DNA of 64,000 nucleotides, taken from NCBI GenBank assembly GCA_006247105.1, contig CM016926.1, positions 1,612,001-1,676,000 on the forward strand, in the 5' to 3' direction. The position numbers were made by a program, and so were the translations under genes. Below, piece after piece: positions 36,747 to 54,486 of this stretch. The stretch comes from Giardia muris (Eukaryota; Fornicata; Diplomonadida; Hexamitidae). The notes below the pieces were generated by a model. The model was not told the origin of the DNA. It searched no databases and worked only from the letters and a program-made list of their open reading frames with translations. Every line of letters starts with the position of its first letter. Within the stretch, counting starts at the first letter, position 1.

Positions 36747-39293
36747 ATGGGTCCCACGGATAAGAACTCGTGGTTCAAGGCCGTCTCGGCGCATGACTAC
36801 GACGCCGTCCGGGCCGGGGTCGAGCGTTTTCGGCGGTGTGTCGATAACAACGACGAGACGGCGCTCATGCTCGCGACCCGGACCAACGACGTCAAGATGG
36901 TCGAGATCCTGGCCAAGTATGAGGCTGGTAGCTTCAATAAGAACTTCCAGACCGCCCTAATGATCGCCGCCGCGCGGGACTATAGCGAGATCTGCCGGGT
37001 ACTCGCACCGCTCGAGAAGCATGTGACGCTTCCTGACGGACGGACGATGCTGATGGTTGCCGCAGCCGCGGGGAACTACGACACCGTGCGTGGCACCTGC
37101 CGAGAGTTTGGGACAGAACGAGATGCAAACGATTGGTCCGCCCTCGATCATGCTTGCGCCGAAGGCCATTTGGACTGCGCAAAGGTCATTGCTCGGACAC
37201 AGGCCTATACGGTCGAGGATATGGACCGTGCGATCCAGATAGCCGAATCCTTTGGAAACACCGCAGTTGCGGACACGGTCCGTGAGATCCGGAATGAAGC
37301 GGAGCTCAAGACCCGATCTTGTAAGCGCTGTCATGAGGTACAAGTGGAGATGCGCATCCTTGAGAAGGAAAATCGTCGCCTAAATGAAAGAGTACAGCAG
37401 CTCGAAGATGAGGGATTACGGCTGGCAGAACGCCTTGAGACCGCGAATAGCACGGCACGTGGACGTTTAGACCCAAACCCTCAATCCCTGGAACTTCTTT
37501 ATGAGACTGCAAAGCGAAATCTCGAGGACAAGGCACGGGAATATGAGAACCTACGGGAGGACTTCATCACCCTTCAGAACGAGTACCAGGACGTTCGTAA
37601 CCAGCTGAAGCTGATGTCCGAGAGCGTCGAGGAGCTCACAAACCCGAATTCCCGGCTCAGCCGGCGCCTAGTCTCACAAGATGCCCAGGACGAGGAGGTT
37701 GCACGCCTACGTACTGAGAACGAGAAGCTTCTCGAGGATGTCGCGCGTCTCAAGCGCTACATTGACGAGGATGTCGTCTCGACGGTCCTCTTCAATTCCG
37801 TCGAGCAGAACCTCAAGAACGTCATAGCCCTTAAGGACGAAGAGATCTCGCGCCTCGAAGGCCGAATACAACAGAACTGTGTTGATGTCGAGTCTCTCGA
37901 GCAGCGTGTGCGCGAGGCGAACTTCGTTAGGGATCAACTAACCCGGTTACAGAACGACTACGCGGAGGCACGTAACGAAGCCTACGTCCAGAGCGAGGCC
38001 GTCAACGAGCTTAAGGAGGAGCTCGAGCGCTATAAGTCGAGTGACGGGCGTAATGCTCGTGAGATGGAGACGGAGGTTTCACTTCTTCGATCCCAGCTCG
38101 CGGCTAAGAACGAGGAGTTCGACATTCTTAAGAACGATCTGTACGAGATCATTGCGCATACGACGATGTCCACTGGAAACGAGGCTGGACTTCGAAGTCA
38201 ACTCGAAGACAAGGACCGACTCATCTCCGAGCTCGAATCGAAGCTCGACATCCGTCGGGAGGAGTGCCAGAGACTCCAGCAGCAAAACAACGACCTCAAC
38301 TCGGACCTCACATATCTCACGACCGAGATGTCACGTGTTGGGGCTCCTAGCGCCCCTGGGCTCGAGCAGCTTTCGGGGATGTCACATCTCGGGCAGAGTC
38401 GTCAAGGGATGCTTGGTGGGCAGCTACGAGAGGATGGACAAACGCGTGAGTTCGATGCGTCCCTTCGGGCCTCTCTAGACAATTTGGGCCACCAGGAGGT
38501 GGATATGGGGTCTGAGACGCTCCTCATGAAGGCTGCTGCCAGTGGAGATGTCAACTCGGTCAAGAAGCTCATCTATCAGGCAGGGACCGCAAACAATTTG
38601 GGGAAGACGGCTCTTATGTACGCGGCTGAGAAGGGGCATACGGAGATCGTCCGCCTCCTCATGCTCAAGGAGAGTCGGTTGCAGGACCAGGAGGGCCGGA
38701 CTGCGCTCTTCTATGCGGCCTGGCACAGGCATATAGGATGTGTCAAGCTTCTTGTGGATCGGGAGGCTGGCCTCGTGAAGAACAACGGATATTCTTCCCT
38801 CATGGTGGCAGCCGTCCACGGGTATACTGACGTCTGCCAGCTCCTCCTGGCGAAGGAGCGCGGCCTCTTTACCAATAAGAACTTCCGTCATGGTGCAGGA
38901 CACACGGCACTGATGTGCGCCGCAGACTGGGGCGATGTGGCTTGTGTTAAGCTTCTCCTCTCGGCCGAGGCGCACATGCGAGACCGTAAGGGCCGGATGG
39001 CACACAACTTTGCGAAGACAGAGGAGATTCGTGATTTGATCCTCAATTACCTGACGGCGAACCGGATTCCTATCACTGACCCCGATGACGCTCTTGACAC
39101 GGAGTCCGGTGCTGGTGCAGGTCGTAGGTTTCTCGAAAGGACCGTGCATGAGCGACCTGACAATTATCAAGAGCAAGTCCAGAACATCGTCCGGGGGCCA
39201 AGCCGTAGTTCCTCACGAAAGAAAGAGCATCTGGGACCGGGCCCCTCTGGGAACGCCTCCGCCTATTTCACTGGAAGCTCCATCATGTATTGA
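36747..39293 (+). CDS. ankyrin / coiled-coil / ankyrin protein, 21.1 family
   Basis: This is an 848-residue protein. N-terminal ankyrins lie at about residues 5-165 (ETALMLATRTND, TALMIAAARDY, TMLMVAAAAGN). A long coiled coil spans about 185-540, rich in E, L, R and N with leucine heptads. C-terminal ankyrins lie at about 590-770 (TLLMKAAASGD, TALMYAAEKGH, SSLMVAAVHGY, TALMCAADWGD). It has the same sandwich plan as the first half of the NEK gene at 19651 but no kinase. It is likely a structural or scaffold protein. It overlaps the 3' end of the convergent 1495-residue gene by 11 bases. Confidence 0.85.
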   Translation: MGPTDKNSWFKAVSAHDYDAVRAGVERFRRCVDNNDETALMLATRTNDVKMVEILAKYEAGSFNKNFQTALMIAAARDYSEICRVLAPLEKHVTLPDGRTMLMVAAAAGNYDTVRGTCREFGTERDANDWSALDHACAEGHLDCAKVIARTQAYTVEDMDRAIQIAESFGNTAVADTVREIRNEAELKTRSCKRCHEVQVEMRILEKENRRLNERVQQLEDEGLRLAERLETANSTARGRLDPNPQSLELLYETAKRNLEDKAREYENLREDFITLQNEYQDVRNQLKLMSESVEELTNPNSRLSRRLVSQDAQDEEVARLRTENEKLLEDVARLKRYIDEDVVSTVLFNSVEQNLKNVIALKDEEISRLEGRIQQNCVDVESLEQRVREANFVRDQLTRLQNDYAEARNEAYVQSEAVNELKEELERYKSSDGRNAREMETEVSLLRSQLAAKNEEFDILKNDLYEIIAHTTMSTGNEAGLRSQLEDKDRLISELESKLDIRREECQRLQQQNNDLNSDLTYLTTEMSRVGAPSAPGLEQLSGMSHLGQSRQGMLGGQLREDGQTREFDASLRASLDNLGHQEVDMGSETLLMKAAASGDVNSVKKLIYQAGTANNLGKTALMYAAEKGHTEIVRLLMLKESRLQDQEGRTALFYAAWHRHIGCVKLLVDREAGLVKNNGYSSLMVAAVHGYTDVCQLLLAKERGLFTNKNFRHGAGHTALMCAADWGDVACVKLLLSAEAHMRDRKGRMAHNFAKTEEIRDLILNYLTANRIPITDPDDALDTESGAGAGRRFLERTVHERPDNYQEQVQNIVRGPSRSSSRKKEHLGPGPSGNASAYFTGSSIMY

Positions 39294-42200
39294 TCTTCTG
39301 GATCTTTCGTCTAAGGGCGTGGAGGAAGTCACGAGTTCCAGGCTCGCAGTAGCGACGGAAGTTCAGTATCCGACAGACGAACTCGCTGTGGGTCAGCATG
39401 TCCTTCTCAAGGTTCTTCGGGACGTCGAGCTCCTCAAGCATCGCATAGTTGTATCCGATGTTCGACGTGCTAATCAGCTCTGCCGAGGAGAGTCCATGAA
39501 GGCGGATGACCTCATCAAGCTGTGGGCAACGTGCCTCGACTTCCGCAAGAGGTAGGACTACTCCATCATAGTCCACACCCACTTCTTTGGGAGTAAGGTG
39601 AAGGCCCGGGATGTCGTTTCTAATGAGGCCATACTCGGCCGCACATCTGTAAAGGCGTCGGTATTCTGGAAGGTACTCTTCTGCATAAAGCCATCGTCCT
39701 ATAAGAACATCCTTCAGAAAGGCGAAGTCATGGGCGAGAGTTGGTGCATCGCTAAGGGCAATCGTGCGTGCCCGAGGCCCACTATCCAAAAGGATAAATA
39801 GGTGGGCATTGACGGCCGCGGCGGAGATCGCATTTGCGACCTTCAAGATGTAAGCAGGAGAGAGGTTACGATAAATATCCCGTAGTGCGATCTCAAGACC
39901 GGACCATGCCGTCTGCAGTTGGGTTTGAGCTACGACAGGACAGTATGCACGTTGGATCAAGGGGCGTAATCCTGTATTGAGGAGATACTTGGCAAGCATC
40001 TCGATGTTCTGTTCGAGTGTTACATTAATTTCCTGCACCATTTCCGTGAAGTAGCTTACAACCAGAACGTGTTCCTTATCTGTCGGCCGCGTCTTTGCTG
40101 TCTCACGCTTAAGGTTTGTGAGCCAATACTGGGACATATCCAGCGGCCCAGTCGTCTCGAGCGTATCCAGACCCGTCTGAAGCTCGTACGTGACGGTATT
40201 GTTGCTGACATACTCGTAGACCGCCCCCACGCGCGCGAGAAGAACCTCGAGAGAGTTGATTCGGTATGTAAGGACGCGACATGCCTGAATGATGTCCGAA
40301 AAAGTCTCCGGGTCCTTCATGAACGAGAAGGAGGAGAAGAGAAGCGCCCCCGTGGGGACTCCACTCCCCATTGGGAGAATAGAGGTGATAGCGGCCTCAT
40401 CGGCGACAAGCTTGTCTTCATACCTCACCGGTTTCCCTTTTCCATGGTTAGCATTCGAACGATGGCGTTCATGTCGTGGAGAATTCACCGTATCGACAGC
40501 CCACCTCAGATTTCCATCGAATCCAATCCGCTCGTTAAGCTCGGGTGCGGCGATGGAAGCACCGACTGCTAGGCTTCCACGGAAACCCTTTTGGGTGATG
40601 ATCTGCGCACTCAAGGCGGATGAGGTGAAGGAACGTTCGGAAACGGAGGGTGATGCCGTCGCTGACCCTCCACGTCTAGTACGGCTCTGCTTCATCATGT
40701 GACGACTCTGTAACTCAGGGGCAATTGAAAACACTTGCATGAGGGGTGGAAGGGCATGACGCTCGCAAGTAGCAGCGTTATATCGGACTGGTTTCAGGAT
40801 GGTTCGAACCAGTTCCAAAACTTGTGAGAATAGTGAGCGAAGAGACGAATCTGAGAGGTGAACTGAGCTAAAGATCGACTCTAAGAAGATCATAACGGGT
40901 TCAATCCCATCTATTGGAGCAGAGCTAGCATTATAGTGCAGAGAGCCACAACGAGAAGTAGATGTCCCGATGGAGTTTGGTGCTGCCTTTTGAAGCGCCT
41001 CTATTAGCCAATTGAATGGTTGGACAGTAAGATTTGTCTCATGCTTATAAATCCGAAGCAATGATCCCGTAATAGTCCCAGCCTCGTTAAGAATGAAGTA
41101 GGAAAGCAATGGGGTGGCCAGGATAATCCCCGTGTCTGCCGGGAAGAGGAACGCAAGGGCTCTTCGTAGCTTGTAGATCTGTGAGAGGCTATCAATGCGT
41201 CGTTCGTGACCGTCTGCAAGCCAGCTGTGTAAAAACCCATTACCAAGGTAATAGGAAAAGAAGTTGTTTCCTAGAGACGTGACAACCGTATCCAGGTTTC
41301 CAAGTAGAGTCTTTAGAGCCGTGAACTTTAGTTTATAATGCTGGGTCATTGTAAGGCTCGAGAGTGACGCCCCAAAGCGGTCTGATAAGAAGCGTATGAG
41401 AAGACCACTGAATATCGACATGGGGGAAACGCGAGCTAATGTCTCATCTGTTTCCGTGTAATCACAATAAGGAAGGGCATAAAGGCCTGCACATTGTACG
41501 TCCATCCCCTGCTTATCGACTTGGGCCGAGAGAGGCTTTGAAACGAGCCGCGACGCCATGCAGAAGCTCCCAGCGACGTATATATGCCAAAGAGACTTGC
41601 TGATTGAAGAATCATCGGGTTTGAAGAAGAACTCGGTGAAGATCGGCATGAAAACCTCCAGTTCGACGGTGATCTGATCAATGACGACCTCAAGCATCTT
41701 TGCAAGGACCATGATCGGACAAGGCGGAGGCTTCTCACGACCCTTTCCAGCTACGGCCACGATGCCTGCGTTTAGGTCATCAAACGAGATCTCCTCGACC
41801 TCGGGCTCCACACTTAGAAGGTTCATCTCTTCTGTATCGGCCTCGGCTTGACAATACAGTCGCATTAATTGACGTAGTATCGAGACCTGCATGTACTTCT
41901 GGAGGCGAACCTGGAAGATATAACGGCTCGAATCCTGGCCAAGTACTTCCTTGATTGAAAGAGGTGTCAAGCCGAGTTCAAGGAACTCCGGAGATGCGTT
42001 GTATTTTTGGAAGACTGTCATGAGGAGAGAAAGGGTGTAACGTAAGGGGTATGGATTGAGACTGAAACGAGTATAATCCGAGAGGTATGGCTCAAGAACA
42101 TCACAAGTGAGGTCGACCTGCCCGGCCGTGTCAATCGATACATACTCCTGTAGGAACATATGAAACTCCGTTAGACACTCACCCTCCTCAAGGATTTCCA

Positions 42201-43770
42201 TTGGAAGCTGGCTAAGCACACTCAAGAAGAACTTGTGAGCATCGTAGCCTGGTGTCTTAGCGTTTTTCTTACTGAAACACCCACTGATAGGATCGTAGAC
42301 CTCCTCGGCCAAGGGTAGGTATGGGGCGAAGTATACGTCGTGAATCCTTGAAAGTACCTGATAATACGCGGCAAACAAATCTTTTCGACACGTGTCATAC
42401 ATCTGTTTCGTTTCAGAGTCGTAGACGAGCAGACGGACGAATTGGGAGGAAAAGTCCGAGGCTAGAGCCGGAGTAATGAAGGGCATGCGTTCAAGTAGAG
42501 AAGTCACGGAGACGTCCCCTACCACCTCCACTAGAAGAGCTATTATCTTCATAACGCAACGGAAGCAGGTACAAAGCTGTCGCACCAACCTTGGCTCGTC
42601 CGCCGATGTCGACTTGAAGGAAGTATCAGTTTCGGTATCAAACGAGGCCAACGAAACGTTCAGCGAGCTTCCGACGAAGTGCTTCCGGCTTGCAAAGCCG
42701 TTGGCAAGGGTGGAGAGCTTGTTGATGCAGGTCCCAAGCGCCCGGACCACATCGCTGGTTGAGTCTGCAAGGAACCCGAACTGGGTGTTAATTTGATTGA
42801 GGAGGGACGCGCTCAATAGAATGGTATGACGGACCACGTAGTTAATGAGGAGTGGCTCTGAGATGAGGGCATCAAGGTTTCCTGAGGAGAGGACTTGTTT
42901 GTATGGGAAAGGCCTTTCTAGGGCCTCGCTATATTCGGCGATAAGCCAGGTCTGCAAGTCCACGTTGTTTCGGTGCTTCAGAAGGGCATATAATGACAAC
43001 GCAACGATATCCAGCTCGGAAGCGAATGAAATCAACTGCGAGGCAGCGAGGTTTGTCTCCTCCTCCGTCTGACTGCTTAAGGGGAGGGTTGTAAAGTGGG
43101 TGGCGGAGTTCCCAGAAACCAGAAGCTGTTTGTATGCGTATTGCATCCAGACCGCTAGGGAGACGAGATCACCGACAGGGAGATTCAAGTTCGCACGCAT
43201 AGCTGTCTGGACATCGAAGAAGGTTGCATCATCGATCATTCGCCCATAGGCCGCGGCTCGTGGAGGAGCGTCGTGGGATGCGCGTCGAAGGCGTTGGGGC
43301 GAGGTATAAAGTCCTGAGAACAGAATCCATAGGTCAGAGACGCAATAGGTCAGGTGGAAGGAGTCATGGAAAGAGATCGCTCGTTGAACAAAGAGGGGAT
43401 CCAATGGAGGAGCAACGGAGTAGTCCGTTCCTTCGCTTGAGAGGTTCACCGTCTTCGTGGCGATACGAAGCGAGCTTCGACCTGGTCTAAGAGGCTGCTT
43501 GGTTGGGGTTGCGGCCGCCGACGATGCCAAGGAGCGAGCCCTGCTGGAGCTGGCGGCAAGGCTTGAGGCGATGGAGATTTCGCTGCAGTTGGAGTCGTCA
43601 ATAGCATGGGACAATGGCAACTTATCGATCACCTTGACCGTTGGGTCTCGGAGTAAGGCCACGAGGGCTGGGACGTCAACAGCGCCCTCCGATGGGAGCC
43701 CCCTTACCTTGCTAAGCTTGGGGTCAGTCAATAATAGATAGCCGAGGAGAAGCTCGACGTCTGAGTTCAT
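39283..43770 (-). CDS. very large helical protein, unknown
   Basis: This is a 1495-residue single ORF. A short disordered S/A/R-rich stretch at about 70-105 is followed by nearly continuous helical, solenoid-like sequence with scattered low-complexity loops (about 1080-1190). No membrane span, P-loop or zinc motif is seen. I compared it in mind with WASH-complex, SCAR/WAVE, exocyst and GCP families, and no diagnostic motif convinced me. It starts at ATG 43770, 95 bp from the divergent gene at 43866. Confidence 0.7.
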   Translation of the reverse strand: MNSDVELLLGYLLLTDPKLSKVRGLPSEGAVDVPALVALLRDPTVKVIDKLPLSHAIDDSNCSEISIASSLAASSSRARSLASSAAATPTKQPLRPGRSSLRIATKTVNLSSEGTDYSVAPPLDPLFVQRAISFHDSFHLTYCVSDLWILFSGLYTSPQRLRRASHDAPPRAAAYGRMIDDATFFDVQTAMRANLNLPVGDLVSLAVWMQYAYKQLLVSGNSATHFTTLPLSSQTEEETNLAASQLISFASELDIVALSLYALLKHRNNVDLQTWLIAEYSEALERPFPYKQVLSSGNLDALISEPLLINYVVRHTILLSASLLNQINTQFGFLADSTSDVVRALGTCINKLSTLANGFASRKHFVGSSLNVSLASFDTETDTSFKSTSADEPRLVRQLCTCFRCVMKIIALLVEVVGDVSVTSLLERMPFITPALASDFSSQFVRLLVYDSETKQMYDTCRKDLFAAYYQVLSRIHDVYFAPYLPLAEEVYDPISGCFSKKNAKTPGYDAHKFFLSVLSQLPMEILEEGECLTEFHMFLQEYVSIDTAGQVDLTCDVLEPYLSDYTRFSLNPYPLRYTLSLLMTVFQKYNASPEFLELGLTPLSIKEVLGQDSSRYIFQVRLQKYMQVSILRQLMRLYCQAEADTEEMNLLSVEPEVEEISFDDLNAGIVAVAGKGREKPPPCPIMVLAKMLEVVIDQITVELEVFMPIFTEFFFKPDDSSISKSLWHIYVAGSFCMASRLVSKPLSAQVDKQGMDVQCAGLYALPYCDYTETDETLARVSPMSIFSGLLIRFLSDRFGASLSSLTMTQHYKLKFTALKTLLGNLDTVVTSLGNNFFSYYLGNGFLHSWLADGHERRIDSLSQIYKLRRALAFLFPADTGIILATPLLSYFILNEAGTITGSLLRIYKHETNLTVQPFNWLIEALQKAAPNSIGTSTSRCGSLHYNASSAPIDGIEPVMIFLESIFSSVHLSDSSLRSLFSQVLELVRTILKPVRYNAATCERHALPPLMQVFSIAPELQSRHMMKQSRTRRGGSATASPSVSERSFTSSALSAQIITQKGFRGSLAVGASIAAPELNERIGFDGNLRWAVDTVNSPRHERHRSNANHGKGKPVRYEDKLVADEAAITSILPMGSGVPTGALLFSSFSFMKDPETFSDIIQACRVLTYRINSLEVLLARVGAVYEYVSNNTVTYELQTGLDTLETTGPLDMSQYWLTNLKRETAKTRPTDKEHVLVVSYFTEMVQEINVTLEQNIEMLAKYLLNTGLRPLIQRAYCPVVAQTQLQTAWSGLEIALRDIYRNLSPAYILKVANAISAAAVNAHLFILLDSGPRARTIALSDAPTLAHDFAFLKDVLIGRWLYAEEYLPEYRRLYRCAAEYGLIRNDIPGLHLTPKEVGVDYDGVVLPLAEVEARCPQLDEVIRLHGLSSAELISTSNIGYNYAMLEELDVPKNLEKDMLTHSEFVCRILNFRRYCEPGTRDFLHALRRKIQKINT

Positions 43771-44845: not shown

Positions 44846-47113
44846 CTAATTGGCACCCTGTCCTAACATAGCCTCGCGTACCTTGAGTTTTAACTCCTTC
44901 ACCTTCAGTAGATAGTCCTCCTCGAGCTGCTTCTTCATCCGGGCATACTCCCGATCACGCTCCTTGATGTACCGGTCTTTGACGGCCTGCTTGAGGATCT
45001 CCATCTCCTCTCGGTGCTTCTCCTTTAGGCGCTCAATCTCTTCTCGATGAGTGGCGAGATCCTTGAGGGACTTCTCACGAAGTGAATGGATCTCATCCTC
45101 GTACTTCTGACGGACGAGACGAAGCTCGTTCTCGCTCACTGTGTTTCCATGAGAGGAAGGCCCGGATATTTGCGGCAAAACCGATGGAGGAGCGCTACGA
45201 TGACTTGGCGAGGCTACACCCGTTCTACGTACACGCTCGAGCTGTTCGGCTAGATCCTCGAGCTCTCGCCGCATCCTGACAATAGTATCCTTGTCTGCAT
45301 TCCTCTCCGACCTAAGAGCTTGAGCCTCGTTCTCTGCAGCGTTTGCTCGCTCCAACTCACGCTCCGCCTGGATGCGCAATTGCTCGACCATATCGTCTGG
45401 AGACTGAGAGCCATCCACACGTGCTTGTCTATAAGGGCTTGCCTGTCGTCCCCAGCCACATCGCACCAACTTGTCAAGATCATCGTTGAGCTCGCGGACA
45501 AGCTGCTCCTTCTCGGACGAAAGTCCAATACTCTGGTCGTTCGGATTGAAGATAGAATTGAACATTGTCTCATCAGCACTGGAAGCCATCTGAGCCTGAG
45601 GTCCTTGAGCGAGCTCTGCCTTCAGGACTGTGTTCTCGTTCTCGAGCTCCTCAACGAGCCGCTCGAGCATATCGATAAAGTTGTCTTTCTCCTCAAGAGC
45701 CTTGCGAACCTCTGGATTCGGGATGTTAGCGTAGAGCATCTTCCGATCTGGGCGGTCAGTAAACCCATTCTCAGAATCCTGCATACGGTCCTTTAAGGCC
45801 GCTGGAGCCTTCGGTGCCTCAAGAGATTCCAGGAGGTGGAGCTCCGACAGAGTAAAACGTATCCTATCGGCCAGTTCCACCAGATGATCCGGTGTTACTG
45901 ATTTATAGAGGCAAGGCGCTCGTTGAGCGTCGACGAGACTCAAGGCTGCTAGAACCGCTCCTCGTGTGCAGAAGCAGGTGCTGGGGAGGGTTAGGTAGCC
46001 CAAGACAGCCCCCGCACGTAGGAAGAGTAACTGGTGGAGCACTTTGGCCAGTGCTGACGTCGTCTTTGTCGAGAGGTGATCGAAAAGGGTCGCCGACTCC
46101 AAGCAATTACGTGTAAGCACTGCGGCTAAAGAACCTGCCGTTGGGACGAGGGGCAATGTCCCTCCATTAGCAGGGCGCCGGGTATAACCGTCGAATGCAT
46201 TCGAGGGCTCATCGGATGTTCCACCCCAGAACCCGATACCCCCGGCGAGGCAGCACCCGAGTGCTAGCTTGTCCGTGACGGAAAGGTTCCGCAGGTCGAA
46301 GCGACGACTAACAGTCTCCAACGTTGGAACCGGCTGTCCATTATTCTCAACCCAGAAGCGATCTCCCCCGCGGAAGATCGGAGCAAAGAATCTGAGCGGG
46401 ATTTCTTCTCCAGTCTTCTTCTTGAGGGTGTAGAGCAAGAGCACGGCCTCTGCCGAGGTGTTGTGGAGGGCGTATCCGAGTAAGCACGTCATTACTTGCG
46501 CATACTCTTCGAGCTTCCCTCGATTAGGAGCCCGAGACCCAAGGCTATCTCTCTCAAGAACAAAAGTTCCTAACTCGGGGGTATAGCTTATATTGCCAAT
46601 CAGATCGACAGACGTCTCCAGTCCTATCGGGTCCGGTGTCTTCTGAGAGGTGAGCGTCGGAAGAAGGTCGTACGCAACACCACAGACGAAGGACACTACC
46701 GAGACCGTTAAGGACACGCAGACATCAGCAGAGCTCGAAGACCCGTTCAGAACACTTGGGAGTGTAAGGAACGGGCTGCAGACGGTAAGAAACGCTGAGC
46801 CTTCGACAATAAGCGGGAAGACGATGGTCCCACCGATCTCGCGACGCAAGGTGGCCGTCACGAAGTCCTCGATTATCGAGTCGGCCGCATCGGCCAAGGC
46901 CTCTGCACTGGCATACTCCATGGTCTGGAATGTGTCCACCGTGTACCTCGTTGCCCCAGTTCTTACCTCAAGGTCCGATCCGCTAGCATTAAACACAACC
47001 TGGTCGAGCGTCGATGGAGGGAGCGTCTTCGGGTCCACCTTCTGTATCATCACGACCGTGAGGCCAGAATCCCCTGGCCTTTGGTCCATCGCCTTCTTCA
47101 ACAACGGTGGCAT
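44846..47113 (-). CDS. degenerate kinesin-fold coiled-coil protein A
   Basis: This is a 755-residue protein. Residues ~15-430 can be laid along a kinesin motor in order. LTVVMIQKV fits strand 1, and YTVDTFQ...SAEALADAADSI fits the FDRVF...V.... region. TIVFPLIVEGSAFLTV (96-111) lies where kinesin has its P-loop. SLTVSVVSF..GVAYDLL fits EIY...RDLL. HNTSAEAVLLLYTL fits N..SSRSH, and RGAVLAALSLVDAQRA fits ETLSTLRFA.RAK. The nucleotide-binding GKT/S, SSRSH and DLAGSE are lost, so it should not hydrolyse ATP. The rest is coiled coil. It is a clear paralogue of the gene at 52054. ATG 47113 is used; the longer frame begins with TTG. Confidence 0.6.
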   Translation of the reverse strand: MPPLLKKAMDQRPGDSGLTVVMIQKVDPKTLPPSTLDQVVFNASGSDLEVRTGATRYTVDTFQTMEYASAEALADAADSIIEDFVTATLRREIGGTIVFPLIVEGSAFLTVCSPFLTLPSVLNGSSSSADVCVSLTVSVVSFVCGVAYDLLPTLTSQKTPDPIGLETSVDLIGNISYTPELGTFVLERDSLGSRAPNRGKLEEYAQVMTCLLGYALHNTSAEAVLLLYTLKKKTGEEIPLRFFAPIFRGGDRFWVENNGQPVPTLETVSRRFDLRNLSVTDKLALGCCLAGGIGFWGGTSDEPSNAFDGYTRRPANGGTLPLVPTAGSLAAVLTRNCLESATLFDHLSTKTTSALAKVLHQLLFLRAGAVLGYLTLPSTCFCTRGAVLAALSLVDAQRAPCLYKSVTPDHLVELADRIRFTLSELHLLESLEAPKAPAALKDRMQDSENGFTDRPDRKMLYANIPNPEVRKALEEKDNFIDMLERLVEELENENTVLKAELAQGPQAQMASSADETMFNSIFNPNDQSIGLSSEKEQLVRELNDDLDKLVRCGWGRQASPYRQARVDGSQSPDDMVEQLRIQAERELERANAAENEAQALRSERNADKDTIVRMRRELEDLAEQLERVRRTGVASPSHRSAPPSVLPQISGPSSHGNTVSENELRLVRQKYEDEIHSLREKSLKDLATHREEIERLKEKHREEMEILKQAVKDRYIKERDREYARMKKQLEEDYLLKVKELKLKVREAMLGQGAN

Positions 47114-47160
47114 CTTTTGCGCTTCTCGCCAAAAAAGTACATCGTTTTGTCGGCGACGTA

Positions 47161-50100
47161 CTATTCGGTTAGAGTGTGTGCCATAGCTCTCCGAAGAATC
47201 TTCCAACAGCTCTGCACCTGTCCGATCCCGAAGAGCTGAGACCCGTACCGGGTAGTGTTTCGGCTCGAGCGGGGGCCGATCGGAGGAGGGGTAAGTGCGA
47301 CCAGGCGAGAGCGGAAGCGACGAAGGATGAGGGTCTCCAGCATTCGGAAGGTGAACTCCATCGTGTTGGCAGTCAGGACCGGATAGTGCGTCCGTGCGGA
47401 GAAGTATTGGGAGCCATATTTCTTGATGCAGAAGCGGACAGCTGGCGTCTTCAGGAGGGCGCGTAACGTGCTCGTATGGACGCGGTGCAAGTGTGGGACG
47501 CCAGTCCAGTCGAAGTAGAGCTGGACGCCTCCTGTATCAAAGAGGTCGGTGAGTTTGGATGGATCTATTGTGAGCTCTTCCGATTGTGCTGGTGCTATAG
47601 TGGCAGGAGAGGAGAGTCGTTGCATCAATTGAAACTCCTTATATGTTACCCATTGGTCGCCGGCCATCTCTCGTTTGGCACGAGTCCGAGGACAATGACT
47701 AATCTGTCTCCCGTCGATTCGGACGTGGCGTGGGCCGACTAGGGAGACGGGGGCGGAGCATTGTGGGGTACAAATCTGAGAGTCTTCGCTTTGCTCGGTT
47801 AAGGCGGGTTGAGAGGCATGAACAGCCTTATGTAGTGTGGCATGACGCCGCTTCCGAATACGACGTCGATGAAGGCTTGTCAGCTGGCGTTCTACGGGTG
47901 CTCCACGATAACTTTCAGGTTCTGGTTTGACGGTTGATATGAGAGAAACGTCGGGGGTTGTGAGAGTCGGTAAGCATGCCATTGGTGCATGTACCTGAGT
48001 TTGTGTCATCTTCCGAAGGTATTCTTGGACTTTATGGCCATGTTCTGGTTGACCCTCAACAGAATTGACTCCTTCTTCATCATCTCTTTCCGAATCTACT
48101 GGGCTGACGATTATCAGCTCACTGAGGCATTGGCGATATCTAAGAGCATAAGTCTCGGTGTCTTGATTATCTGTAAATGATAGAAGCGCCTTATCAGCCA
48201 GGAGCTCAAAGTAATCGTCCAACTCATCAAGTGATGCCTCTTGATCTCCATCCCCCGATTCCGAGGCGACATCAAGCTCTCGGATCAGTGAGTCTCGATA
48301 CATGGCGCTCAGTTGTTCTCGCCATTTCTGTTCTTCGGTCAAGACTGGGGTGAGCTTGCTATACGAGCTACGCGTATATTGAAGAGATACGGTAGCAGTC
48401 TGGGAGGTCGGTGGTGCGCGTTGCAAGGTACGTGTCCCAACCAGTCCCGCACTTGGATCAGAGATGGTTTTCTTGTTCAACGTTGTCGGACGCATTTGAT
48501 ACTTCTGCTCTGCCCCCGGAACAAGTAGCTGACCCTTACTCTTGGAGATAAAGCGTCTAGTTTCGTTCAACTGCCGAGTTTCCTCGAGAGATTCCTTCTG
48601 CCTTTTCTGTAAGCCTTCAAGAGCCCTATCTTTTCGATCATCGGGTGTGGCCAGGTTCACGTGCCAAGAAGATCCAGAACAGATATTGAACGACTTGTAT
48701 CGTTGAGAGATGCGCTCAAAGGCGGCAAGGAACTTCGAGGCGAGGGCTTTCGCGGTTGTAATATGTGAGGGTTTCCCAGGGAGTGCTGAGGTTTGATGAC
48801 GATCTCCACTAACATAATTCTGAAGGATATGTGAGATGGTTGCCGGGTCTGTATAGTCCGGCTCCTCTCGCGTGGCAGAAAGGATTGGAAGGTTGATGCT
48901 GAGTTTAAGACGCTCAGTATTGGTAAGCTCGCGGCCGGATGGATGGAATCCTAGGCTTAGTATCTGCTTATTGCTATGTGAATATTCCCGTTCATATTCT
49001 CGGCCTTCTAATAATGCGGAAAGGGGATCTGAGTTCGAACCGAGGTTAGTCGTTCGGAATCGTGAGATGGAGTCCGTCATATCTTTGAGTAAACTTTCCT
49101 TGCTACAGGCCTTAAAGGGGACGGAGGCATCAAACATGAAGATGCTGGTATGCAGCTTCCGAATCGCTTGTGTCTTTTGTGTTTCCATTAACGTATGATA
49201 CTGAGGGATCTGTGGGAGGGCAGATCGATACTGTCGAACTAAGCCCTCTTTAGACCCATTCGAAAGAGGGCCATCCTCCATGGCCGCTACATATAACGCC
49301 TTCTTATCCGCCCGTGACGTTCCAGAACGGCCGTGCGTGTCCTGAGCATACTTCGAGAATGTGACCAGCTTATCATCAAGCGCCTTCACCAAGTCGGTGC
49401 TCAAGGTGTTATGCATCATGTTAGCGATCTTCCGAACGAGAGCCTCATCGATGATATGTAAAGAATAAAGGAACGTCCCGGTTCCGCGGGCCAATGTCGC
49501 AGCGAAGATGACGAGCGCCGTCTCCGCTAGACTATCGCCCATGAATAATGTCGGAAGATCAACGTTGATATGTGCATTAGAAAAGACTCGCGTCACAAGG
49601 CTACTACACAAGGACATATCATTCTCACTACTCGCAGAATAGTTGAATGCAGTATGGGTATGAGCTAATGAGTCTGCAACTGTGCTCGTCGTGAACGCCA
49701 TTGAAGCCTCGGAAAGCGCTTTGGTGGCCGTTTCCTCATCACAGCCATCAAAGATTGTCCCGGTTTGCGTCAAAAAGAGTGTGTAGGGGAGTCTATAGAT
49801 GAAAGACTGTGCCGTCTGTGAGCCTGCTGTCAATGGATCGAGGGCACTGGTGGAGGTTGGAGCTGTTGTTCGGATAGTCCCTATTTCCTTCAATGTCCGA
49901 ACGTGCTCAAAGGGTGTCGTATCAATTATACTGTGGTAGATCGCCCTGTCCTTCTGCTTCCGTTGCATGGACTCCAGTGTCGCCTTCTGACGTAGAAGGT
50001 CCAGCTTGAGCTTCACCGCTTGCTCCTGGAAGCATTGTGAGAGCCGCAAGAAGAAGTTCCCCAGCTCTGGCGAGTGTTGAGTACCGACGTAGACGATCTG

Positions 50101-50646
50101 TTTATATATGAATGGCTTCTGCTCATATGCTTTGGGCTCCCTGGTCCCCGTCGACGAAAGGAGGAAAAGCTCCATGTCTTTCCGTCGGAAGAAGAGAAAC
50201 CTATCCGGACGTAGGCCAAGCTCCCGAAAACGCCTAACAGACCTGGCAGGGCCGGACTCAATTGGCTGATTCAGCCCCTTCCATTTGTGAAAGCCCCCCA
50301 TCAGTAATGCCACCCTACGGATCTGAAAGTACTGCAAGTACCACCATGAAGCGTAGATATGCAAGTTACTTGAGTTCTGGGCGTAGAGGACGATATTCTC
50401 CGTCGAGATGAGGCCCTGCAACCCCGCCCAGCGGCTGAACTCAGCCGTGGTGGGTATGTGGTCTGCTTTCATAAGCGTCTCGGGGGTAGTAATCAATGGG
50501 AGCGAGGCCGGGATGTGCTCTATCGAGAACTCGCCCTGCTCATAGGCGAGAGAGGCATCCGTCGGGTCTCTACAGCAGAAGACGTGGATTCTCCGCCGCT
50601 CGGTCTCGTCGAGCAGCCATTGCTGCGAAACTAGCATGGGGTTCAT
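47161..50646 (-). CDS. rhodanese-fold N-terminal domain fused to a large unknown protein
   Basis: This is a 1161-residue protein. Residues ~1-140 resemble a thiosulfate/mercaptopyruvate sulfurtransferase N-domain: an IHVFCCRDPTDA loop, then PTTAEFSRWAGLQGLIS, ENIVLYAQNSS, SWWYLQYFQIRRVALLMGG and FHKWKGLNQPIESG. The active-loop cysteine is absent (LYAQNSSN), as in the non-catalytic half of tandem rhodaneses. The remaining ~1000 residues are unrecognised, with a coiled segment at about 205-240 and basic disordered stretches. A catalytic second rhodanese domain is not evident. The role may be a protein-binding scaffold (inference). The start codon is 7 bp from the divergent ankyrin-RING gene. 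Confidence 0.7.
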   Translation of the reverse strand: MNPMLVSQQWLLDETERRRIHVFCCRDPTDASLAYEQGEFSIEHIPASLPLITTPETLMKADHIPTTAEFSRWAGLQGLISTENIVLYAQNSSNLHIYASWWYLQYFQIRRVALLMGGFHKWKGLNQPIESGPARSVRRFRELGLRPDRFLFFRRKDMELFLLSSTGTREPKAYEQKPFIYKQIVYVGTQHSPELGNFFLRLSQCFQEQAVKLKLDLLRQKATLESMQRKQKDRAIYHSIIDTTPFEHVRTLKEIGTIRTTAPTSTSALDPLTAGSQTAQSFIYRLPYTLFLTQTGTIFDGCDEETATKALSEASMAFTTSTVADSLAHTHTAFNYSASSENDMSLCSSLVTRVFSNAHINVDLPTLFMGDSLAETALVIFAATLARGTGTFLYSLHIIDEALVRKIANMMHNTLSTDLVKALDDKLVTFSKYAQDTHGRSGTSRADKKALYVAAMEDGPLSNGSKEGLVRQYRSALPQIPQYHTLMETQKTQAIRKLHTSIFMFDASVPFKACSKESLLKDMTDSISRFRTTNLGSNSDPLSALLEGREYEREYSHSNKQILSLGFHPSGRELTNTERLKLSINLPILSATREEPDYTDPATISHILQNYVSGDRHQTSALPGKPSHITTAKALASKFLAAFERISQRYKSFNICSGSSWHVNLATPDDRKDRALEGLQKRQKESLEETRQLNETRRFISKSKGQLLVPGAEQKYQMRPTTLNKKTISDPSAGLVGTRTLQRAPPTSQTATVSLQYTRSSYSKLTPVLTEEQKWREQLSAMYRDSLIRELDVASESGDGDQEASLDELDDYFELLADKALLSFTDNQDTETYALRYRQCLSELIIVSPVDSERDDEEGVNSVEGQPEHGHKVQEYLRKMTQTQVHAPMACLPTLTTPDVSLISTVKPEPESYRGAPVERQLTSLHRRRIRKRRHATLHKAVHASQPALTEQSEDSQICTPQCSAPVSLVGPRHVRIDGRQISHCPRTRAKREMAGDQWVTYKEFQLMQRLSSPATIAPAQSEELTIDPSKLTDLFDTGGVQLYFDWTGVPHLHRVHTSTLRALLKTPAVRFCIKKYGSQYFSARTHYPVLTANTMEFTFRMLETLILRRFRSRLVALTPPPIGPRSSRNTTRYGSQLFGIGQVQSCWKILRRAMAHTLTE

Positions 50647-50653
50647 CTAATTT
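50647..50653. promoter_or_regulatory. 7-bp divergent promoter region
   Basis: Only ctaattt separates the two opposing ATGs (rhodanese-fold gene and ankyrin-RING gene). The AT-rich heptamer is the sole non-coding DNA available to both. Confidence 0.5.
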
Positions 50654-52051
50654 ATGGCGCCCCCGATCGAGTGGTGGTTCTCTGCTGCCCGTGGAGGAGA
50701 CGTCCTGAGCCTTCGCGGCGCCATGGACCGACTCGTTGGGTCGCGGACGGACGAGGGCCAGACCGCCCTCATGATGGCTGCCCGAGCCAATTCTGTCGTG
50801 ACCATGAGAGCACTTGTTGACCGCGAGGCCGGGCTGCAGGATTCTTACGGGCGGACTGCTTTGATGCTAGCCGCTGGTTCTGGTGCGAGCGATGCCGTTA
50901 GACTTCTCGTTTTATCCGAAGCAAGTATTTGTGACAACGCCGGAGATACCGCTCTTGTCTACGCAGCCCGTAAGGGCTTTCGAGATTGTGTGGAGGCGCT
51001 CATTGGTTCAGAGGCTGGCCTGTCGGAGGAAGGACGGCCGACAGCCCTGATGCACGTTGCGTCCTATGGTATGAACGTTGATCAACTATCACATCTCATT
51101 AATAAAGAACGTGGACGGCACGATGACCTTGGGATGACGGCTCTTATGTATGCCGTTTCTGCCGGGCAGCTTGGAATAGCAAAGCTCATAGCACAATATG
51201 AAGTCGGATTAGTTGACCTCCAGTCACGTACGGCACTAATGCATGCCATTCAACGGCGCAAGTACTCTGTTGCAGAATATCTTCTGATGGCCTTCCCTGA
51301 GGCGGAGGCATGCAAACAGGATGCCGAGGGGAAGACAGCCCTGATGTATTTGGCATCTGAAGAGACTGCACCTGAATTCCTTGCAGCGTTGCTCATTCGA
51401 AAGGAGGCTGGGATCCATGATCTGGATGGGAAGACCGCTCTAATGTACGCCTGCCTCTCGAATAATGCCCCCTTGGTTCGTCAACTGAGCAGACGCGAAG
51501 CGGAAAAGCGGACACGCGATGGGAAGACTGCCCTTTGGTATTGCATGTCCGGAGGCAAAGTCTGGCTTTATCCCTATCTTCTCACGGAACTGAACATAGT
51601 CTCACGAAATAACCCTCGTCAGTATCTCATTTCACGTGGAGCATATCTGGTGGACCTAGTCTTCCTTTCCGGACATAAGACCATGGCTATCAAGCTGAAG
51701 GACTGGCTCCTCATCATATTTCGTACCTTCTATGCATCTCCTAAGGATGAGGCGTATGATTTGCTTGAGATAATGATTGACTTCTACTTCACATTCTACC
51801 CTACCAGTTCCATCGATGGGGAGCTATTGCAAATGCTCTTGCACTTCGAGAAGCGTCTTGACATCGTCCTTGGCGTCGACGAGGCCCCTACGTGCAACAT
51901 CTGCCTGGATAATATCGCGTCCATCGTGACTCTCCCCTGTTGTCACTGTGTGACGTGCCGTGACTGTTCGGCGAGCCTCAGGACGCAAGGGAAGGCCTTT
52001 TGCATTGTCTGCAAGGCCCCGACGACAGACTGGATAGATACCGCGGAGTAA
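50654..52051 (+). CDS. ankyrin-RING protein (putative E3 ligase)
   Basis: This is a 465-residue protein. About nine ankyrin repeats lie at 5-305 (TALMMAARANS, TALMLAAGSGA, TALVYAARKGF, TALMYAVSAGQ, TALMYACLSNN). A helical linker runs to about 410. A C-terminal C3HC4 RING starts with CNICLDN and continues with CCHCVTCRDCSASL and CIVCKAP. RING proteins recruit E2 enzymes for ubiquitination, and the ankyrins would select substrates. Stop TAA at 52049 is only 2 bp from the ATG of the next gene. It is the intact counterpart in type of the fragment at 21942. Confidence 0.85.
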   Translation: MAPPIEWWFSAARGGDVLSLRGAMDRLVGSRTDEGQTALMMAARANSVVTMRALVDREAGLQDSYGRTALMLAAGSGASDAVRLLVLSEASICDNAGDTALVYAARKGFRDCVEALIGSEAGLSEEGRPTALMHVASYGMNVDQLSHLINKERGRHDDLGMTALMYAVSAGQLGIAKLIAQYEVGLVDLQSRTALMHAIQRRKYSVAEYLLMAFPEAEACKQDAEGKTALMYLASEETAPEFLAALLIRKEAGIHDLDGKTALMYACLSNNAPLVRQLSRREAEKRTRDGKTALWYCMSGGKVWLYPYLLTELNIVSRNNPRQYLISRGAYLVDLVFLSGHKTMAIKLKDWLLIIFRTFYASPKDEAYDLLEIMIDFYFTFYPTSSIDGELLQMLLHFEKRLDIVLGVDEAPTCNICLDNIASIVTLPCCHCVTCRDCSASLRTQGKAFCIVCKAPTTDWIDTAE

Positions 52052-52052
52052 A
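52047..52052 (+). terminator. poly(A) signal across the ankyrin-RING stop
   Basis: AGTAAA contains the TAA stop and abuts the ATG at 52054. The same 7-8 bases may act as the 3' signal of one gene and the A-rich initiator of the next. Confidence 0.5.
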
Positions 52053-52053
52053 A

Positions 52054-54486
52054 ATGCCAGCGCTTTCCTCCCTCTACATTCGCGGAAGCGGCAACATCAC
52101 CCGCGGGGTCTCCATCTGCCACATCCACGCCCTCCCCAAGCAGAAGAAGGGGGCGCCAGTCAAGACCCCGAGCGTCAGGTTCGAGCGGGCTAAGGCTAAG
52201 GACAATCTCACCGTCTTGATGGAAGGTCGAGACACTTGGACCGGGGAGTTGACGACGTTGGGCTGCTACCGCAACAACGCAGCCTCGATTAAGGCTGCTG
52301 AGGTCGAGGTCGATGTCGGGGTCACCGAGGCCTATAAGCGTGGTCAGTCTCTCACCTTCCTTCTCCCCGTCGTTGTTTCCAAGGATACCATCGTCAATGC
52401 TTGCCTTCCTTACGGCAGTTGCCTCCCCGCATTGCTGCGCAGCTGCAATACCGTGCGGATGACGGTTCTTGGGGTTCTTAATGGGAAGCCAGTTGACCTA
52501 GGGCGATATCTCTATCAGGATACGAAGCGAGAGGGCACGGCACCTCCAGATGTGCATCCAATCTTTAACTTGGCTGGTGAGTTGGACTTTGCGAGCTGTC
52601 TTCACCCAACTGACTTCGAGAACTTCAAGAGGCATCGGAACAGCATTACCGCCTTCGCTGAGAAGGAGAAGAATCTGAATACCGCGATTCAGGAGATGGC
52701 GAACCTTTCGCTTGTCATCGTCACATATTCCGCATGGGGGCAGGTTCCTACCGGATTTGGCATTCCGGGGCGCTACGAGACCCTTTATACGTTCGTCATG
52801 CCGATCTTTCGCGACACTGATCAGTATTGGCTGAAGAACATGCGTACTAAGTTCGACCCGTATGACCTCGCGAGCTTCTCGGGGGTCGACGTGAAGGATA
52901 ATATACTAGCCGAACACTTATATCTTGCTCAATACGTACATGCTGGAGGGGTCTTCTACGATAAGAGCTCCGAGCTGAATGCCCCGCTTCATGCCGCGAA
53001 AACGATGGCCCCGAGCGTCCCAGCCGGTGTCTCGGCCACTAGGCAGGCCGGTGTGACGACTCGTGGGGCTCAAACCCAAGAGGACGCTAGACCCTCTGTC
53101 CTTAGCCTTTACCAGCGTGATTATGCCGAGCTCATGTGCGTCCCGAAGAACCGTGTTCGAAAGGGGACCTACGAACCCCGCGGTGTTGCCGACTTCGTCA
53201 TCTACTCGACCTCCGCGATCGCGCCCAAAATCCTCTTCAAATACCTGCACATCAAGGATACGCTGAGCATCTCGCTGATTAGCCTCCCCGCCGCTGTCTA
53301 CTCCAGCCCCGGGCCCGTTCTTGCCGCTCTTGCTTTCACTTTGCACAACCCGAAGACAGTTTGCTGCAATCATATCTCCTATAACGCCCTCGACCTCGTT
53401 GCGGGCGCTCGTGCGCGCTTCATGGCCTTCCACATGCGAGTGGATAGGAACTTCATGGCGAACGCCGACGACATCCCCGAGCCACGGGAGATGGAGTTCG
53501 TCGTCGAGACCCAGTCCGGAGACGTCGTCTGTAGCCTCGACAAGTTTTCGAACGAGTTCGTCGATGAGGTGCGGGATGCACCAGACTTACACGAGGCAGA
53601 TGGTGGTGATGACGCCCCTGCCACACTTGGTCCAGGCACCGCACTTCCAACTGCATACTCCCAAGGGAGTCCACAACCGTATGGAGATTGCGACTCCAAC
53701 CGCTCCCGTGACGAACTACTAGCGTCTGTCGAGGCAAACCTCGCGGCAATAGAACGAGAGAACCAAAGGCTCCGTGGGGAGGTAGCGTCTCTTCAGAAGA
53801 TGGCGGGGATGGATCCCGATTATGCAGACGCCTCGTTGGCGGATAAGTCCTACTTCGAGCTCCAGCCCGCCTCATTGACCCAGATGACGATCGGGAACTC
53901 TGCAACCAAGAACGGACTACTCAATGACATCGAGCGCGATATCCAGGAGCTGATCTCGATATCGCGGCGTCGAAACAATGAGATTGCAGCCCTTTCGACA
54001 CAGGTTGACAACCCGGACAATCCGGACGCGGCCTTACAGGAGTACAGGCGCATTAACCAGGACCTCGAGGAGAAGGTTGACAGGCTCGAGCGAGCACAGC
54101 GAGCGTTACAGACCGAGCTTGATGGGGAGCGACAGGAGAACGAGGAGCTTCAGAGAAGGCTGAAGGATCTACCCGCGGCGGACTCTTCGGGCTCTAAGCC
54201 TGCAGATGAGGCCGCCGTCCAAAAGCTCCGTATTCAATATGAGAACCAGATCCTTCAATTGAAGAAGGAGAACCTGGATAACACGAAGAAGCTTCGTGAT
54301 GAGATCGAGCGCGTCCGTGCCACCCAGGCGACGAAGATGAAGGAGGCGAAGAGGCGCTTCGAGGAGGATCGGGATCGTGAGATCCGTAGGCTCAAGACAC
54401 GCATGGAGGAGGACTTCATGGCGAAGCTCAATGAGATCAAGGACAGAGTCCGCAATGCAATGTCGGCGGCTCAGCATGGAGCGTAG
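52054..54486 (+). CDS. degenerate kinesin-fold coiled-coil protein B
   Basis: This is an 810-residue paralogue of the gene at 44846. Both share a gap-free block over the ruined P-loop (here PVVVSKDTIVNACLP, residues 105-119; there PLIVEGSAFLTVCSP). Both have PIFRDTDQYW/PIFRGGDRFW where kinesins have DLAGSE. Both have PVLAALAF/AVLAALSL where kinesins have the ETLSTLRFA helix. Both end in the same coiled coil: YENQILQL, LRDEIERV, RLKTRMEEDFMAKL and VRNAM. There is no functional ATP site. By analogy with Kar3-Vik1, the two could dimerise with each other or with a real kinesin (inference). The ATG at 52054 is chosen over an upstream frame through the RING gene. Confidence 0.62.
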   Translation: MPALSSLYIRGSGNITRGVSICHIHALPKQKKGAPVKTPSVRFERAKAKDNLTVLMEGRDTWTGELTTLGCYRNNAASIKAAEVEVDVGVTEAYKRGQSLTFLLPVVVSKDTIVNACLPYGSCLPALLRSCNTVRMTVLGVLNGKPVDLGRYLYQDTKREGTAPPDVHPIFNLAGELDFASCLHPTDFENFKRHRNSITAFAEKEKNLNTAIQEMANLSLVIVTYSAWGQVPTGFGIPGRYETLYTFVMPIFRDTDQYWLKNMRTKFDPYDLASFSGVDVKDNILAEHLYLAQYVHAGGVFYDKSSELNAPLHAAKTMAPSVPAGVSATRQAGVTTRGAQTQEDARPSVLSLYQRDYAELMCVPKNRVRKGTYEPRGVADFVIYSTSAIAPKILFKYLHIKDTLSISLISLPAAVYSSPGPVLAALAFTLHNPKTVCCNHISYNALDLVAGARARFMAFHMRVDRNFMANADDIPEPREMEFVVETQSGDVVCSLDKFSNEFVDEVRDAPDLHEADGGDDAPATLGPGTALPTAYSQGSPQPYGDCDSNRSRDELLASVEANLAAIERENQRLRGEVASLQKMAGMDPDYADASLADKSYFELQPASLTQMTIGNSATKNGLLNDIERDIQELISISRRRNNEIAALSTQVDNPDNPDAALQEYRRINQDLEEKVDRLERAQRALQTELDGERQENEELQRRLKDLPAADSSGSKPADEAAVQKLRIQYENQILQLKKENLDNTKKLRDEIERVRATQATKMKEAKRRFEEDRDREIRRLKTRMEEDFMAKLNEIKDRVRNAMSAAQHGA

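Follow-up and report, generated by a model that had tools for sequence, protein, structure and literature searches.

Two divergent Giardia muris paralogues with predicted kinesin-fold heads, no nucleotide-binding motifs and matching coiled-coil stalks

Smy1 and VAB-8 are non-motor kinesins and, like KIF26A, are recognizable as kinesins by sequence. KIF26A is a kinesin-related protein without motor activity (PMC10585591). The motor homology domain of Vik1 and Cik1 binds microtubules and is without ATP-binding elements (PMC4338441). This domain is C-terminal in Vik1 (PMC3544905), and both proteins heterodimerize with Kar3 (PMC10281266). Two genes in a 64,000-nucleotide stretch of Giardia muris contig CM016926.1 (the window; contig positions 1,612,001 to 1,676,000) encode proteins, here P0002 and P0001, that invite comparison with these systems:

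44846..47113, minus strand: P0002 gene, 755 amino acids; predicted kinesin-fold head that lacks nucleotide motifs, followed by a coiled coil in four segments (open reading frame, AlphaFold2, fold searches, G. duodenalis relatives)
52054..54486, plus strand: P0001 gene, 810 amino acids; second predicted kinesin-fold paralogue with a matching coil (open reading frame, AlphaFold2, fold searches)

Each reading frame has an ATG and a stop codon at its two ends, where a sequence-only reading of the window had placed them (that reading gave no strand for the first), and the genes lie about 5 kb apart. That reading regarded them as paralogous "dead" kinesins related to Vik1 and Cik1 by analogy, an interpretation that is supported in that the fold is predicted and the nucleotide motifs are absent from all eight family members compared (P0001 to P0008).

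P0002 and P0001 are divergent paralogues, as had been proposed. BLASTP aligns their heads at E 2e-10 (spanning P0002 residues 67-393) and their C-terminal coils at E 3e-18. The shared landmarks named earlier are found as well, including a block that aligns without gaps (PLIVEGSAFLTVCSP, P0002 100-114; PVVVSKDTIVNACLP, P0001 105-119), the pattern PIFR-x-x-D-x-(F/Y)W (PIFRGGDRFW in P0002, PIFRDTDQYW in P0001) and the AVLAALS and PVLAALAF helix motifs. Among the matches listed from the protein database, the relatives of P0002 are P0003 (92%), P0004, P0005, P0006, P0007 and P0008, all of them annotated as hypothetical or uncharacterized or left nameless; the G. duodenalis relatives are GL50803_00113871 (P0006) and GLP15_4655 (P0005). 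P0006 also aligns with P0001 (E 1e-21, 20% identity), the alignment beginning near residue 100 and reaching the C-terminal end. When P0001, P0002 and P0006 are used as whole-genome queries, they return these two genes, with other places at E >0.3; P0002 finds the P0001 coil at 2.3e-7 and the P0001 head at only 0.9, and P0006 finds the P0001 head at 1.2e-4. As a protein-database query P0001 returns itself alone among the matches listed, and neither P0001 nor P0002 as query found a P0001 orthologue in G. duodenalis among the fewer than 8,000 candidates scored in each search, a scope that does not in itself show its absence. By computation, P0002 is conserved in G. duodenalis. In the tree the branch to P0001 is long (1.98) and lies close to where G. 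muris and G. duodenalis part, and the tree does not date the duplication. Searches of viral contigs and plasmids gave no relatives, as expected for a eukaryotic gene.

The predicted structures carry the case for a kinesin fold. AlphaFold2 models of whole P0002 and P0001 were built from a shallow alignment of eight sequences. Kinesin motor domains have a characteristic order of elements, and the secondary structure of the P0002 model follows it from strand b1 to helix a6, in agreement with the landmark order proposed from the sequence. In comparisons with VIA-align, kinesins fill all 50 of the rows listed for each model, with Z scores far above 7-8, the range that the tool names as usual for the top hit of a model lacking a clear match; these rows cover residues 7-402 of the P0002 model and 50-435 of the P0001 model. 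By prediction only, both heads thus have the kinesin motor fold from b1 to a6:

45923..47065, minus strand: predicted kinesin-fold domain of P0002, residues 17-397 (AlphaFold2 elements, VIA-align rows)
52171..53358, plus strand: predicted kinesin-fold domain of P0001, about residues 40-435 (VIA-align rows)
45923..46087, minus strand: equivalents of helix a5, strand b8 and helix a6 in P0002, residues 343-397 (AlphaFold2 elements; a5 is 69% identical between species)

Several points weigh against this assignment. Model confidence is moderate, with a mean predicted local distance difference test score (pLDDT) of 58.8 for P0002 and 49.2 for P0001, a predicted template modelling score of 0.47 and 0.40, respectively, and pLDDT below 50 across most of the loop 12 (L12) region. 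Target-normalized TM-scores from Foldseek are 0.24-0.51, low partly because whole proteins served as queries. The two models rest on the same eight rows and are therefore not independent. No sequence profile backs kinesin homology, whether by Pfam, phmmer, profile search of the PDB, hmmsearch or hhalign. The kinesin motor family PF00225 is not among the 16 Pfam families listed for the eight members at E<=10, a listing in which the HMMER filters discard most matches above 0.1, and the 25 places in the genome that match PF00225 do not include the P0002 and P0001 genes. Searches of PDB sequences with phmmer and with a profile gave weak matches, with no kinesin head among those listed. With a profile built from 23 G. 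muris kinesins, hmmsearch reports three of the eight members, at negative scores and in the coil only. The hhalign score is 17.0 with P0001 in the alignment and 18.0 without it, and 120 shuffles of the columns give a mean of 16.5, a 95th percentile of 24.1 and a maximum of 30.3. The kinesin homology proposed from the sequence has support from structure prediction and not from any significant profile match.

A gapless scan of seven blocks from the G. muris kinesin profile against five of the eight sequences, with placement judged by eye afterwards, is a hint at most. The best window falls where the fold would put it in six of 35 cases: two of seven in P0002 (b2-a1, b4-b5), two in P0006 (a3-switch I-b6, a5-b8-a6), one in P0001 (b4-b5), one in P0007 (a5-b8-a6, with the b2-a1 window off register by about four) and none in P0004. 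Only b4-b5 of P0002 (shuffle fraction 0.002) is clearly above shuffled sequence, the other five having fractions of 0.07, 0.74, 0.32, 0.12 and 0.42. In none of the five sequences do the blocks for the P-loop, switch II and a4 land in place; two good-looking switch II windows, at 318 in P0002 (fraction 0.004) and at 180 in P0007 (0.038), were rejected as misplaced. These shuffle-level scores, together with the moderate pLDDT and the shallow alignment, speak for the likeness to kinesin being an artefact of structure prediction and the head an unrelated alpha/beta fold. Such an artefact is very improbable; against it stand the kinesin element order and the uniformly kinesin rows at high Z. With the sequence methods all negative, the claim depends on predicted structures from a shallow alignment, and on these models P0002 and P0001 very probably have kinesin-fold heads.

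Axoneme chains are also found among the kinesin matches of the fold searches (9y6s_8a for P0002; 9ijj_c, 9ijj_d and 7n61_0X for P0001), from structures of a Leishmania doublet, the mouse sperm central apparatus and C2 projections.

The heads lack the motifs by which kinesins use ATP. None of the eight members has a Walker A, SSRSH-like or DLAGSE-like motif, which confirms the loss proposed earlier. The corresponding places are:

46778..46816, minus strand: P-loop-equivalent stretch of P0002, residues 100-112 (PLIVEGSAFLTVC), after strand 3 in the model; no Walker A in 8/8 members
52366..52404, plus strand: P-loop-equivalent stretch of P0001, residues 105-117 (PVVVSKDTIVNAC), by gap-free alignment to P0002
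46352..46381, minus strand: PIFRGGDRFW of P0002, at the switch II (DLAGSE) place after strand 7; 78% identity between species
52801..52830, plus strand: PIFRDTDQYW of P0001, at the switch II place by alignment with P0002

All eight members possess P(I/V)FRxxDx(F/Y)W at the switch II place. Because it is 78% identical between species and 60% between paralogues, this motif looks newly constrained rather than decaying. The other kinesin genes read in the same genome number 24 (from 25 PF00225 places, a single frame holding two); the P-loop is present in 24 of 24, DLAGSE in 23 and SSRSH in 22. One of them, L031, has the P-loop and DLAGSE and no SSRSH match. Another, L037 (L037:437-2869, minus strand, G000:C4 near 160.9 kb, 810 amino acids), is without SSRSH and has DLAVFP in place of DLAGSE. 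Like P0002, L037 has a degenerate N-terminal kinesin head and a tail that is coil-rich by eye; unlike P0002, it still has the P-loop sequence GPRGTGKS and matches PF00225, over positions 28-111 only (33.7 bits), and it matches PF16796 at 6.5e-4. L037 and P0002 have no significant similarity (E 0.16).

Identity was computed for each of 23 elements, with P0002 compared between species against the G. duodenalis group. The whole head is 33% identical between species and 20% between paralogues, and PIFRGGDRFW ranks highest of the 23 elements between species. In the P0002 lineage, a5 (69%) and the coil segment CC4 (59%; 34% between paralogues) are the best-kept longer elements, CC4 being the best-kept coil segment, and the b5-L8 region is poorly kept (29%). 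A helix after a6 (P0002 residues 405-432, window about 45818-45901, minus strand) is 46% identical between species. It follows the head at about the length of a kinesin neck linker and might be a neck coil.

The C-terminal coils were said to be alignable, and both models contain four coil helices in identical order:

45605..45715, minus strand: CC1 of P0002, residues 467-503; AlphaFold2 helix, heptad score z 3.1
45449..45520, minus strand: CC2 of P0002, 532-555; AlphaFold2 helix, heptad z 1.5, weak
45224..45400, minus strand: CC3 of P0002, 572-630; AlphaFold2 helix, heptad z 3.3
44864..45133, minus strand: CC4 of P0002, 661-750; AlphaFold2 helix, heptads irregular, z 1.4
53698..53802, plus strand: CC1 of P0001, 549-583; AlphaFold2 helix, heptad z 2.9
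53899..54006, plus strand: CC2 of P0001, 616-651; AlphaFold2 helix, heptad z 2.2
54022..54180, plus strand: CC3 of P0001, 657-709; AlphaFold2 helix, heptad z 4.8
54208..54477, plus strand: CC4 of P0001, 719-808; AlphaFold2 helix, heptad z 1.6, weak; 34% identical to CC4 of P0002

Their lengths in P0002 and P0001 are 37 and 35, 24 and 36, 59 and 53, and 90 and 90 residues. Heptads in CC1 and CC3 are well above shuffles (z 2.9-4.8) and those in CC2 and CC4 are weaker (z 1.4-2.2). The sums of g-e' charge pairs in CC1 are -2 for either homodimer and for the heterodimer alike, and in CC3 they are -6 (P0002 homodimer), -4 (P0001 homodimer) and -5 (heterodimer). Charge pairing in CC1 and CC3 thus shows no preference between homodimer and heterodimer, and a heterodimer preference from charge is unsupported.

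In the mechanism proposed here, P-loop, switch I and switch II would have been lost in a common ancestor of P0002 and P0001, leaving non-catalytic kinesin-fold heads borne on a C-terminal coiled-coil stalk. The proteins would most likely act as ATP-independent, microtubule-associated dimers whose paired heads rest on microtubules and do not step. The conserved stalk end (CC4) would link the heads to one another or to a partner, and the dimers would thereby crosslink or brace a stable Giardia microtubule array. The conserved a5 and CC4, the shared four-segment stalk and the CC1 and CC3 heptads suggest that the proteins dimerize, that their heads are free of ATP and that the tail makes a conserved contact. 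We infer that the heads do not bind ATP, that they bind microtubules, and that the proteins dimerize and serve as a brace. The putative function as an ATP-independent microtubule-binding or crosslinking dimer has an even chance of being right, and the bracing mechanism, given the kinesin fold, is an evenly balanced proposition. A dimer of P0001 with P0002, a two-headed, motorless and ATP-independent "double-dead" kinesin serving as a fixed microtubule brace, is doubtful; it would differ from Kar3-Vik1 and Kar3-Cik1, heterodimers in which one head is catalytic.

Other findings count against the brace. No clear basic character is seen in a4, L12 and a5, their net charges being 0, -1 and +1 in P0002, -1, +2 and 0 in P0006, and -1, +4 and +1 in P0001, and they give no clear sign of tubulin binding. 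The a5 helix is just 23% identical between paralogues, and no expression or localization data were found. The lack of a prominent basic surface, the poorly kept b5-L8 and the peak of conservation at the former switch II, which looks like selection for a new surface, would also fit a head that kept its fold, lost microtubule binding and became a protein-protein scaffold, for example around PIFRxGDxFW. This is unlikely; a5, too, is strongly kept in the P0002 lineage, though not between the paralogues, which speaks against it. Alternatively, each dead head may pair through its coil with a catalytic kinesin and tune or target it, as Vik1 and Cik1 do with Kar3. There is precedent for a microtubule-binding motor homology domain without ATP elements (PMC4338441), and the 23 G. 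muris kinesin genes with P-loop and DLAGSE are possible partners. However, the domain order is reversed relative to the C-terminal head of Vik1 (PMC3544905), no member has a listed match to PF16796 at E<=10, the charge counts do not favour heterodimers, and the genome searches with P0001, P0002 and P0006 (E<=10) hit nothing overlapping a kinesin gene of the PF00225 set, though homology is not required of a partner's coil. Pairing of this type is as unlikely as the scaffold.

The earlier parallel with Vik1 and Cik1, as nucleotide-free heads that pair with Kar3, agrees with PMC4338441 and PMC10281266, and these proteins are the nearest working parallel to the Giardia family. Both have a kinesin-like head without ATP-binding elements (in Giardia by prediction) and a coiled-coil stalk. 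In P0002, however, the head comes first (17-397) and the coil after (467-750). The Giardia family further differs in that G. muris has two dead paralogues and no known catalytic partner, and Microtub_bd (PF16796) is not among the 16 families listed, unlike the Vik1/Cik1 type. PF16796 is no specific marker because it matches ordinary kinesins (23 places in the genome). Vik1 is not among the structural matches listed. Like KIF26A, Smy1 and VAB-8, the Giardia proteins are, by prediction, kinesin-related and without motor activity, but they are not recognizable as kinesins by sequence. Given the domain order, the lack of a listed PF16796 match, the lack of a known catalytic partner and the two dead paralogues, they are placed as non-catalytic kinesin-fold proteins that are neither Vik1/Cik1 members nor PF00225 kinesins. 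Literature searches by topic gave, among the papers listed, no description of this family or of a Giardia pseudokinesin, searches by identifier gave none of its four identifiers among the matches listed, and 113871 is unmentioned in the main text of PMC13322205, PMC6312909 and PMC3243723. PMC6992383 and PMC2867816 contributed nothing further.

If the proposal is true, kinesin heads in a protist can shed both ATP use and all recognizable sequence identity and yet stay conserved, and such loss occurs outside yeast, where Vik1 and Cik1 are described. The findings suggest that the microtubule skeleton of Giardia may include kinesin heads that need no fuel, carried on coiled-coil stalks, and that its "hypothetical" proteins may conceal more relatives of motors. 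For the question of how Giardia builds stable microtubule arrays, named and testable proteins are now at hand in GL50803_00113871 and the related G. muris proteins.

Two genes lie between those for P0002 and P0001:

47161-50646: rhodanese-domain protein
50654-52051: ankyrin-RING protein

Beyond the pair, 39283-43770 (minus strand) encodes a 1495-amino acid protein with a PATROL1-like TPR match (PF25761, 1.2e-9). On the other side, 53 bases after the end of P0001, 54540-56720 (plus strand) encodes a 726-amino acid protein that carries, at its C-terminus, the microtubule-binding CKK domain of CAMSAP/Patronin (PF08683, 1e-12).
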